From Lachnospiraceae bacterium (GTDB taxonomy: Bacteria > Bacillota > Clostridia > Lachnospirales > Lachnospiraceae): a stretch of DNA of 32,374 nt. The notes under the pieces were generated by a model. The model worked only from the letters and a program-made list of their open reading frames with translations, did not search any database and had not been told where the DNA came from. Positions 15,628-19,688 of this stretch are shown here, one piece after another (positions within the stretch are counted from its first letter, which is position 1; each line of letters opens with the position of its first letter). The position numbers were made by a program, and so were the translations under genes. The stretch is taken from assembly GCA_016285265.1 (NCBI GenBank), contig JAEEQL010000018.1, positions 1 to 32,374 on the forward strand. Reading direction: 5' to 3'.

Positions 15628-16410
15628 TTAGGAATGCGTGAATACCTCTCCCGCTGCGGTAAGCTCCTCACGTCTCTTCCTTATACCGTCAAGGATAACC
15701 TTTTTCTTTTCCAGAAGGACCTTGGGATCGAGAGGTTTTACATCCTTGAGGGGATAATCTATTCCGAGTTCCTCATACTTCTTCTTACCCATGTCGTGAT
15801 AAGGAAGAGCATCGAGTGCCCTCAGATTGTGGAACTGTCCGATGAAATATCCGAGTTCGTACAGATATTTGTCATCATCCGTAAGACCCGGAACGATGAC
15901 GTGGCGTATCCACATGTCTACATTCTTCTCCTGAAGATAGAACGGGAATTTCAGTATATTGGTATTGGGCTGCTTTACAAGACTCTTATGATGCTCATTA
16001 TCGATATGCTTGATATCGAGCATTACAAGATCGGTCAGTTCGCAGAGTCTGTCATATTTCTTCATAAGCTCGGCATTATCGGGATTGAACATTATTCCCG
16101 ATGTATCGAGACAGGTGTGGATACCGTCCTTTTTGCAGAGCTCAAAAAGCTCGAGAAGGAAATCTATCTGCACGAGGGGTTCTCCGCCGGTAACGGTCAG
16201 ACCGCCGCCGTTCTGATAGAAGCTCTCGTTACGGTGATACTGCTCGAGGATATACTTTGCCTCCATATCGGTGCCACCCGCCATCTCCCAGGTATCCGGG
16301 TTATGACAGTAAGCGCATCTCATGGGGCAGCCTTTGAAAAATACAACGAACCTTGTGCCGGGTCCGTCTACGGTTCCGAAGCTTTCAAGAGAATGAATGT
16401 GACCTATCAT
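15628..16410 (-). CDS. pflA: Pyruvate formate-lyase activating enzyme (radical SAM)
   Basis: GCPMRCAYCHNPDTW (CxxxCxxC) and TVTGGEPLVQIDFL motifs. Confidence 0.95.
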   Translation of the reverse strand: MIGHIHSLESFGTVDGPGTRFVVFFKGCPMRCAYCHNPDTWEMAGGTDMEAKYILEQYHRNESFYQNGGGLTVTGGEPLVQIDFLLELFELCKKDGIHTCLDTSGIMFNPDNAELMKKYDRLCELTDLVMLDIKHIDNEHHKSLVKQPNTNILKFPFYLQEKNVDMWIRHVIVPGLTDDDKYLYELGYFIGQFHNLRALDALPYHDMGKKKYEELGIDYPLKDVKPLDPKVLLEKKKVILDGIRKRREELTAAGEVFTHS

Positions 16411-16430: not shown

Positions 16431-16457
16431 GGGCCCGAAGCGTAAGCTTTCGGGCCC
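16431..16457 (-). terminator. Terminator after the glycyl-radical-domain ORF
   Basis: GGGCCCGAA...TTCGGGCCC stem; on the minus strand it is followed by GTTTTTAAAAGG. Confidence 0.75.
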
Positions 16458-16481: not shown

Positions 16482-16730
16482 TCAGATAGACTCGTGGAAG
16501 GTTCTGGAGATAACGTCTGCCTGCTGCTCGGGAGTTAACCTGATGAAGTTAACAGCGTATCCGGAAACACGGATGGTGAGCTGAGGATAGTTCTCGGGAT
16601 GCTGCTGAGCATCGAGAAGAGTATCTCTGTTAAGAACGTTTACGTTAAGATGGTGGCCACCCTTGGTAGCATAACCATCGAGAAGATTTACAAGGTTGTT
16701 AACCTGTGCTGTAGCTGCTTCTGCTGCCAT
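16482..16730 (-). CDS. grcA: Stand-alone glycyl radical domain of pyruvate formate-lyase (GrcA-like, 82 aa)
   Basis: [65 protein letters not shown]; radical Gly57 codon at 16560-16562; AGGAGG Shine-Dalgarno. Confidence 0.93.
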
Positions 16731-16751
16731 TTGTTTTTCCTCCTGTTAGGA

Positions 16752-16955
16752 TTATTGATAGTCATCGATACCCTGATGGAGAGTCGGAACGCTGCAAGCC
16801 AAAGGGGTTCTGGAGCAATCCGTGCAACCCATGGTCGTGACATCCTTTACATCTGTCTGATCTTCGGAGGTGTCAACATTCACATGACCGGTCCCGTTTT
16901 CAAAACCGCTGTCGAGCATCTTCACAAGATCATCTATCATGTCTTTCTGATCCAT
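16752..16955 (-). CDS. 67-aa protein: partial mimic of the glycyl-radical-domain N-terminus with a Cys-containing tail
   Basis: MDQKDMIDDLVKMLDSGFENGTGHVNVDTSEDQTDVKDVTTMGCTDCSRTPLACSVPTLHQGIDDYQ; GGAAAGGA Shine-Dalgarno; lies between the PFL body and the glycyl radical domain on the same strand. Confidence 0.7.
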   Translation of the reverse strand: MDQKDMIDDLVKMLDSGFENGTGHVNVDTSEDQTDVKDVTTMGCTDCSRTPLACSVPTLHQGIDDYQ

Positions 16956-17087
16956 AAGAGTATCCTTTCCGTAAATTTGTATATTCAGTCCCTTCCGGCC
17001 AAGGCACCATGCGGTCCGCTTACAAAAGATCCGTAATGCATTCCTTTGGTGCGTAGCCTTCGGGGATTTGCAACTTATCAGAACCTA

Positions 17088-19130
17088 TTACTTGCTGAGA
17101 TCGACATCAATGTCTCCTGCAAATACCTTGTCATCCTTGCCGAGTGCACCGGGGATGATGGTGAAGGTATTGGAGATTCCGTCCTGAGCATCGTTGAAAG
17201 GAAGCTTGGATACGGATGACAGTGATGCAACAGCACCGTGGGTATCACGGCCGTGCATAGGGTTAGCACCGGGAGCGAAAGGCATTCCCTTCTTACGTCC
17301 GTCAGGAGTGTTACCGGTTGCCTTACCGTAGGTAACGTTGGAAGTGATGGTAAGGATGGAGGTGGTAGGAACACCATCTCTGTAGGTGTGGTGACGACGT
17401 ACAGCGGTCATGAACTTGTGTACGATATCCTGAGCGATCTCGTCTACGCGGTCATCATCGTTTCCGTACTTAGGGAACTCACCGGTGGTCTTGAAGTCGG
17501 TGATGATTCCGTCTTCGTCACGGATAACTTCAACCTTCGCATACTTGATAGCGGAAAGGGAATCGGCAACGATCGAAAGACCTGCGATACCGGTTGCGAA
17601 ATATCTCTTAACGTTCTTGTCATGAAGAGCCATCTCTGCTCTCTCATAGCAGTACTTGTCGTGCATGTAGTGGATGATGTTGAGGGTGTTAACGTAAACC
17701 TCAGCCTGCCACTCCATCATGTCCATGAACTTGTCCATAACATCATCATAGTCAAGAACATCGCCGGTAACGGGACGATACTTAGGTCCGATCTGCTTCT
17801 TGGTAACCTCATCGATACCACCGTTGAGAGCGTAAAGGAGACACTTAGCAAGGTTAGCACGTGCTCCGAAGAACTGCATCTCTTTACCGATGACCATGGA
17901 GGATACGCAGCATGCGATACCGTAATCATCGCCGTGAACAACTCTCATGAGATCGTCGTTCTCGTACTGGATGGAAGATGTGGTGATGGAGATCTTAGCG
18001 CAGTACTTCTTCCAGTTCTGGGGAAGTCTGGTTGACCAGAGAACGGTGAGGTTGGGCTCGGGAGCCGCACCAAGGTTCTCAAGGGTGTGAAGATAACGGA
18101 AAGAGGTCTTGGTAACCATGTGTCTTCCGTCAACGCCTACGCCGCCGAGAGACTCGGTAACCCAAACGGGATCGCCTGCGAAGATCTGGTTGTACTCGGG
18201 AGTTCTTGCGAACTTGACGCAGCGAAGCTTCATGATGAAGTGATCTACGAATTCCTGGATCTCTTCCTCGGTGAAGGTTCCGTTTGCAAGGTCACGCTCA
18301 GCGTAAATATCAATGAAAGTGGAGGTACGGCCAAGGCTCATTGCTGCGCCGTTCTGCTCCTTAACGGATGAAAGATATCCGAAGTAGGTCCACTGGATAG
18401 CTTCCTGTACGTTAGCAGCGGGCTTGGAGATATCGCATCCGTAAGATGCAGCCATCTCTTTCATCATCTTGAGAGCCTTGATCTGCTCGCTGAGCTCTTC
18501 ACGAAGACGGATGACATCATCGGTCATAACGTAATCGGTGGAAAGCTTCTGCTCTTCCTTGTCCTCGATAAGTCTGTCGATTCCGTAAAGAGCTACTCTA
18601 CGATAGTCACCGATGATACGGCCTCTTCCGTAAGCATCGGGAAGACCGGTAATGATGTGAGAAGTACGGCAAGCTCTCATCTCGGGGGTATATGCATCGA
18701 AGCATCCCTCATTGTGAGTCTTACGGTTTACTGCGAAGAAAGCGGATACTTCGGGATCCATCTCATATCCGTTATCCTGACATGCCTTCTCTGCCATTCT
18801 GAGTCCGCCCCAAGGCTGGAGTGAACGCTTGAAAGGCTTGTCGGTCTGGAAACCAACGATCTTCTCCTTGCTCTTGTCAAGGTATCCGGGGCCGTGAGAA
18901 ACGATGGTTGAAACAACCTTGGTGTCCATATCAAGAACGCCGCCTGCTTCTCTTTCTTTCTTCTGAAGATCAAGGACCTGTGCCCAAAGATCCTTGGTAG
19001 CCTGTGTAGGTCCTGCAAGGAAGCTCTCATCGCCGTCATAGGGATGATAGTTTCTCTGGATGAAGTCACGGACATTTACTTCTTTGTCCCACTTACCTGT
19101 TTTGAAATCCTGCCATTCAGGTCTTTCCAT
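17088..19130 (-). CDS. pflB: Pyruvate formate-lyase catalytic body lacking the C-terminal glycyl radical domain (680 aa)
   Basis: [29 protein letters not shown] (Cys-Cys), [36 protein letters not shown]; ends [25 protein letters not shown] followed by TAA TAG. Confidence 0.95.
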
Positions 19131-19208
19131 TTAGTAGTACCTCCTATTGAAATAAAAAAAATTTGTTGGACGAAAACGGTCTCTAGTCCCACTTCGTCAA
19201 GTGAATTC

Positions 19209-19238
19209 ATTATAGTTAAAATTGTATACATTAGTCAA
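19209..19238 (-). promoter_or_regulatory. sigma-A promoter of the pfl operon
   Basis: Minus strand: TTGACT (19238-19233), 18-bp spacer containing TGTATACA, TATAAT (19214-19209). Confidence 0.75.
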
Positions 19239-19415
19239 GGCAGTGCCGTGTACTTTTTTACGTACAAAGCCCGTAAAATGGGAGTTTTTTGTGTATACAA
19301 TCCTGTTCCGGAAGTCCTTTTTTCACGGTCAAAAAATTCCCTGTTGTTAAAATCACAACATATGGGATATACTGTCTATTCAGATACAAAAAACAGATTT
19401 TTTACGGAGATCATC

Positions 19416-19688
19416 ATGAGCACCGAAAATATTGAAAACAACAATACAGATAAAGCCGAAGAGAATGTCCTCGAGGTATTCGGTATCAGACCCGACATGA
19501 CTCTCGGAGAGATCATGCAGACCAAGCCCGAAGTCATTCCCGTTCTCATGGAAGCAGGAATGCACTGCATCAGCTGCCCCGCAGCAATGATGGAAACACT
19601 CGAAGAGGCATCCATCGTACACGGCATTCCCGTAGATGAGCTTATGAAGTTCATCAAAGAGTCACTCGAAAGAGAAAGCAGCAACTGA
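19416..19688 (+). CDS. DUF1858 domain protein (hybrid-cluster-associated redox disulfide family)
   Basis: VFGIRPDMTLGEIMQTKPEVIPVLMEAGMHCISCPAAMMETLEEASIVHGIPVDELMKFI; start moved to the internal ATG at 19416 after GGAGA. Confidence 0.88.
   Translation: MSTENIENNNTDKAEENVLEVFGIRPDMTLGEIMQTKPEVIPVLMEAGMHCISCPAAMMETLEEASIVHGIPVDELMKFIKESLERESSN

Follow-up and report, generated by a model that had tools for sequence, protein, structure and literature searches.

A very likely obligate split pyruvate formate-lyase with a separate glycyl radical subunit and a cysteine-bearing element in Lachnospiraceae

In the Lachnospiraceae of gut and rumen, pyruvate formate-lyase (PFL) holds a central place in fermentation; oxygen cuts the enzyme in two. 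In the stretch of 32,374 nucleotides from a Lachnospiraceae bacterium that was analysed here (the window), the PFL gene stops before the glycyl radical domain (GRD), which is encoded by an open reading frame of its own. The locus raises the question whether a broken gene is present or an enzyme that is made, and functions, as separate chains. The features of the locus are as follows.

15628-16410, minus strand: pflA, encoding the radical-SAM PFL activase (260 aa; TIGR02493, 287.6 bits, cut-off 231.75)
16431-16457, minus strand: strong hairpin GGGCCCGAAAGCTTACGCTTCGGGCCC with GTTTTT after it, located between GRD and pflA
16482-16730, minus strand: GRD, 82 aa, with the motif RVSGYAV and its own AGGAGG; similar to GrcA3 of NCBIfam
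16752-16955, minus strand: mid, an open reading frame of 67 aa in the gap between body and GRD, with its own start
17088-19130, minus strand: catalytic body of PFL, 680 aa (TIGR01255 positions 2-665, 1091.8 bits)

Read along the minus strand, the order is PFL body, mid, GRD, terminator-like hairpin and pflA. The body contains the active-site motif GIACCVSS with its adjacent cysteines, and its score against TIGR01255 (PFL1) lies above the cut-off of 994.2. It ends in TAA TAG, where intact PFLs run on into the GRD, and reaches positions 1-51 only of PF01228. The radical domain with RVSGYAV is thus not part of the body chain, as it would be in a single-chain PFL1, but forms its own reading frame 357 bp away. 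This 82-aa frame encodes a stand-alone radical domain (PF01228, 83 bits) without any cysteine. Of the 744 positions of TIGR01255, 2-665 align with the body and 664-744 with the small protein, so that the two together make up one complete PFL with no protein sequence lost. Both the separation into two genes and the division without loss had been proposed in a first-pass annotation made from the sequence alone, and both held. That annotation also suggested looking for a full-length PFL elsewhere; in the genome itself (92% complete) no second PFL-like reading frame, Gly_radical domain or TIGR01255 match was found.

The hairpin between GRD and pflA is likely an intrinsic terminator or attenuator, which holds the activase below the enzyme parts, and pflA is probably expressed by partial read-through. 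Similar hairpins were found in most relatives. Upstream of the body and divergent from it, the reading frame at 19044-19688 (plus strand) contains in its C-terminal part a small HCISCPAA protein, which by its sequence resembles a DUF1858-type redox-domain protein.

An in-frame double stop in an enzyme made as one chain by E. coli could indicate a pseudogene or an assembly artefact. Family and phylum were surveyed for separate GRDs with profile NF038360. Genomes were sampled one per species, many of them being metagenome-assembled, and split genomes were counted from open-frame lengths together with checks of the retrieved loci. A separate GRD-like reading frame was present in 60 of 150 Lachnospiraceae genomes drawn over 149 genera, and an ordinary intact PFL in others of this set. 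Within the genus, 21 of 31 genomes carry a separate GRD 3′ of a GRD-less body, which measures about 680-705 aa where complete. The split also occurs in the cultured isolates P6A3, AC2028, YSD2013 and D16-50 and in three one-contig genomes (G055, G100, G139). Separate GRDs also extend to two further families of the same order (G044 and G055), and the phylum survey yielded one case from yet another family (G311). The reading frames have separate starts and their own ribosome-binding sites, their frames relative to each other vary among relatives, and both mid and GRD are under purifying selection. Against this conservation across isolates, metagenome-assembled genomes and one-contig genomes, a broken or misassembled PFL, which the first-pass annotation had named as the finding that would overturn it, is a highly improbable explanation. 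Read-through or recoding of the stop codons was considered as well and rejected, as the frame is not shared in most relatives and each reading frame is equipped with a start and a ribosome-binding site of its own.

Intact PFL1 was searched for with TIGR01255 in 41 split genomes and in G150, which has a fused form. In 38 of the 41 split genomes, as in the genome of the window, a full-length PFL that a spare part could repair is absent; an extra copy exists only in G139, G172 and G185. This agrees with the proposal of the first-pass annotation that the small protein is obligatory and not a spare. As judged from these gene contents, it is very likely that the enzyme functions only as separate chains, i.e. 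that it is an obligate split PFL. Conservation across genomes and the tree of the bodies indicate that the split is old, mostly kept vertically, and usually the sole PFL of the cell. The tree requires two changes between the split and the intact state; a single split clade is compatible with the data (p-AU 0.495), and the split probably arose once. A quick tree had suggested that the intact PFLs L201-L204, which are nested among the split ones, arose by re-fusion, but this was not established in view of the same result.

Two further observations were made during the surveys. The locus L200 (G150:C26:146735-149014) encodes a PFL of 774 aa in which a body is joined by a Cys-rich linker (VTCGCEEVTC) to a GrcA3-like radical domain and which is a fused or transitional form. 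In a phage collection, two short human-faecal contigs labelled 'Bacteriophage sp.' encode a GRD that shares about 80% identity with that of the window (MT838895.1:2055-2288, MT838692.1:5954-6178); these may represent bacterial DNA of the virus fraction or a spare part carried by phages.

Small duplicates of the PFL radical domain comparable to the GRD are known from E. coli (GrcA/YfiD) and phage T4 (Y06I). A YfiD-type protein can be activated by PflA on a PFL without a working domain of its own (PMC8683613). However, YfiD repairs a full-length PFL that once had its radical domain, whereas the body described here never has one. YfiD also needs its disordered N-terminal half for binding; the GRD of the split enzyme is the domain alone, and the additional element is instead a separate cysteine-bearing protein or a tail of the body. 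Against the NCBIfam model NF038360 (rad_fix_GrcA3) the 82-aa protein scores 156.4-157.4 bits over its full length, just under the cut-off of 158, which indicates that stand-alone GRDs of this kind have already been noticed. The cut-off is passed by close relatives and in 52 of the 150 family genomes. The name GrcA3 implies an autonomous cofactor or spare, but on the genomic evidence the GRD is here the only radical domain of the enzyme.

In one respect the first-pass annotation fell short. Its account of body and GRD stood, but it took the enzyme to have two parts and missed a third, which is either mid or a cysteine-bearing tail of the body. Mid contains a Cys pair at its C-terminal end (GCTDCSRTPLACSVPT; the typical stretch is GCTDCSRTPLACSVPTLHQGIDDYQ) and has no glycyl radical motif, the Cys-bearing stretch taking the place of the radical loop. 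Its N-terminal half (the first ~29 residues, comprising a helix and a GHVNV strand) shares homology with the first part of the GRD (hhalign E 7e-7), and the mid profile also matches GRDs of other genomes. Mid has no match among Pfam families, no naming model in NCBIfam, where its N-terminal half alone gave a weak match to GrcA3 (E 0.0055), and no convincing relative of known structure in the PDB. No mid was found in a plasmid search.

Mid is nevertheless a real gene. Almost every locus of the genus has it at the same position, and the genome collection yielded 472 confirmed relatives. The gene order, which the first-pass annotation had proposed to follow through relatives, was body-mid-GRD in 80 of 80 named loci retrieved out of these 472, one of which runs into the end of its contig and therefore has no body sequence. 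With the window as reference, the median dN/dS of mid was 0.045 (29 comparisons below saturation), and purifying selection on it is thus strong. The reading frame of its start sites relative to the body varies among relatives. Two shorter mids, L164 (G066) and L177 (G080), end after GCTDCAK and GCTTCSQ, respectively, with a CxxC only. That mid is a degenerate remnant of a GRD was ruled out by this selection and by its retention at unlinked positions.

All split genomes contain the cysteine-bearing stretch (Cys element) in one of three forms: as adjoining mid, as unlinked mid, or as a C-terminal tail of the body. A strong match to the mid profile was obtained in 38 of the 60 split genomes of the family, and the loci of the other 22 were inspected. 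In 21 of these the body carries a Cys tail, for example ..CGDMACKVPTLHKGIDDDDNN, ..ECGNQACNIPNIMESIDNE, ..DCACCEPNATLDEE and ..LDCLDSACRIPNLEEGLD, while the remaining genome (G183) has an unlinked mid (L210). In G032, body and GRD are ~100 bp apart and mid is likewise unlinked (L195). At least two cysteines are present in 114 of 115 distinct Cys elements, the exception being tail L196 with a single one; their spacing varies from adjacent or C-x1-C up to C-x8-C, and most mid proteins have three (C-x2-C-x6-C). The Cys stretch is absent from the ordinary intact PFLs of the family that were examined.

Tail and mid replace each other on the body tree. Parsimony counts nine switches, at least three of which are forced by strongly supported branches, and the Cys pair is kept throughout. 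As the split probably arose once, its association with the Cys element does not amount to many independent events; the repeated switches between tail and mid, unlike the split, are independent. The Cys element moves, yet every split enzyme retains it; the best reading is that the split enzyme requires its function. We are fairly confident that its partnership with the split enzyme is specific.

Because body, mid and GRD share a frame in the window, they were modelled with AlphaFold as one read-through chain, an artificial monomer predicted with an alignment of relatives. PFL is a dimer. The model of body, mid and GRD superposes on the whole E. coli PFL (2pfl; TM 0.94 by target, rmsd 2.1), mid being neither confidently placed nor in confident contact with the other parts. 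When the GRD was omitted, the pLDDT of the mid helix rose from about 56 to 82, the GHVNV strand formed, and the Foldseek alignment to 2pfl extended over 770 columns, beyond the 680-residue body. In this GRD-less model the N-terminal half of mid lies as if it occupied the place of the GRD helix and strand. The Cys end of mid is disordered in both models (pLDDT <50). An artificial single chain in monomeric form biases docking towards the known fold, and the models are thus taken to suggest that such a fit is possible.

The behaviour of mid in these models could fit a role as cap or inhibitor, in which mid and the GRD would compete for the body and the amount of active PFL would be set thereby. 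The GRD-like N-terminal half without a radical glycine and the better placement of mid in the absence of the GRD are in line with such a cap. But where the element is a tail, it belongs to the body itself and forms no competing module, and an inhibitor constantly produced from the same operon is hard to square with a control of dosage. We therefore regard a cap as unlikely.

What a vacant body requires may be deduced from E. coli. PFL lacking residues 696-759 (cut at 695) reaches wild-type activity together with activated YfiD (PMC8683613). This truncated PFL binds YfiD poorly because the recognition element, residues 696-733, is missing (PMC8683613). According to this precedent, a natural split has to cope with poor docking as well as with an active site left open.

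The first of these problems would be solved if the Cys element, above all mid, were a docking aid, i.e. a separate version of E. coli PFL 696-733 which flags a body as intact and assists docking of the GRD, with the cysteines merely shaping or stabilising the element. Indeed, removal of 696-733 abolishes measurable binding of YfiD (PMC8683613), and the bodies described here are wholly without this stretch. The homology of mid to the start of the GRD includes the same strand, so that body, mid and GRD together would have two copies of it, as cleaved PFL has together with YfiD. Nevertheless, tail-type loci keep the Cys pair without any GRD-like helix or strand. The cysteines, and not the recognition-like part, are thus the common feature of the elements, and the GRD-containing model showed no confident contact of mid. 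A docking aid is accordingly a possible reading, although not one that we would expect to hold.

The three cysteines of most mids are also compatible with a metal site (zinc or Fe-S) that steadies the split enzyme, comparable to what accessory subunits do in benzylsuccinate synthase or 4-hydroxyphenylacetate decarboxylase. In such related enzymes accessory subunits carry [4Fe-4S] clusters (PMC12590467). In benzylsuccinate synthase, small extra subunits with a HiPIP-like fold bind [4Fe-4S] and govern radical formation in a glycyl radical enzyme, the catalytic subunit of which retains its radical domain (PMC12590467). However, only two cysteines are general among the Cys elements and their spacing is widely variable, and mid has neither a family match nor a relative of known structure. 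Metal binding thus appears improbable.

The reading we prefer, and consider somewhat favoured overall, is that of an obligate split PFL whose radical subunit can be replaced and whose vacant body is served by a Cys arm. The GRD would dock into the body at the site held by the C-terminal domain of an intact PFL, and PflA would install the radical on the docked GRD. If oxygen cut the radical glycine, only the 9-kDa GRD would be lost and a fresh one fitted. That the GRD can be replaced in this way after oxygen damage is reasonably probable. At least seven split genomes have a second, unlinked GRD gene with no PFL body nearby (L188, G134:C21; L193, G166:C18; L181, G118:C61; L184, G197:C5; L190, G085:C17; L192, G095:C33; L194, G096:C178), as would be expected of a stocked spare. 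These genes and the activity of truncated E. coli PFL with YfiD are consistent with an exchangeable GRD. By eye, a thioredoxin-like reading frame was identified from the sequence near the GRD of L188 and a Crp/Fnr-like regulator near that of L193.

For the Cys element of the split enzyme, we lean towards an arm that would be tethered to the body either covalently, as the tail, or through the GRD-like helix and strand of mid, which could sit in the empty GRD site. Its flexible dithiol would keep the exposed active-site Cys pair reduced, or quench a stray radical, until it is displaced by a new GRD. PFL turnover makes no active-site disulfide, and a dithiol would therefore serve protection or repair. 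Ribonucleotide reductases (RNR) of class I and II belong to the same barrel superfamily, use an active-site thiyl radical and have a flexible C-terminal dithiol (PMC5704485). This C-terminal Cys pair re-reduces the active site (PMC5704485). The corresponding feature, a conserved Cys pair on a C-terminal tail that appears flexible, is present in the split PFLs (114 of 115 elements; disordered in the models), with tails such as CGNQACNIP and CGDMACKVP compared with ..ESGACKI of E. coli NrdA. The likeness is one of a short motif and would be an analogy, and we propose a reducing or quenching arm of the RNR type only tentatively.

Two recent PDB depositions named 'Formate acetyltransferase', 38la and 38lb, contain PFL bodies that measure 687 and 739 aa and lack a GRD. 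Their chains (38la_A, 38lb_A) end at or soon after the split point, 38lb running past it with ..GNVMFGECDMCEMKELD... By sequence they resemble GRD-less PFL bodies, but may be truncated constructs. A search for a GRD chain in these entries gave none, and in the PDB copy up to 2026-04-08 they were not among the matches to our model. In view of these bodies and of the NCBI label GrcA3, the split itself is probably known to a few specialists. Neither a naturally split PFL nor mid or the Cys element was described in any paper that the literature search returned. The obligatory nature of the split, its breadth in Lachnospiraceae and the Cys element thus appear to be undescribed in the literature searched.

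The split enzyme bears on how anaerobes whose PFL is cleaved by oxygen survive exposure to it. The 'spare part' repair known from E. coli is turned by a natural split into a standing design, and parts that are made separately would allow radical installation, docking and damage to be studied. With the split comes a Cys element that is nameless in the family libraries searched and absent from ordinary single-chain PFL.
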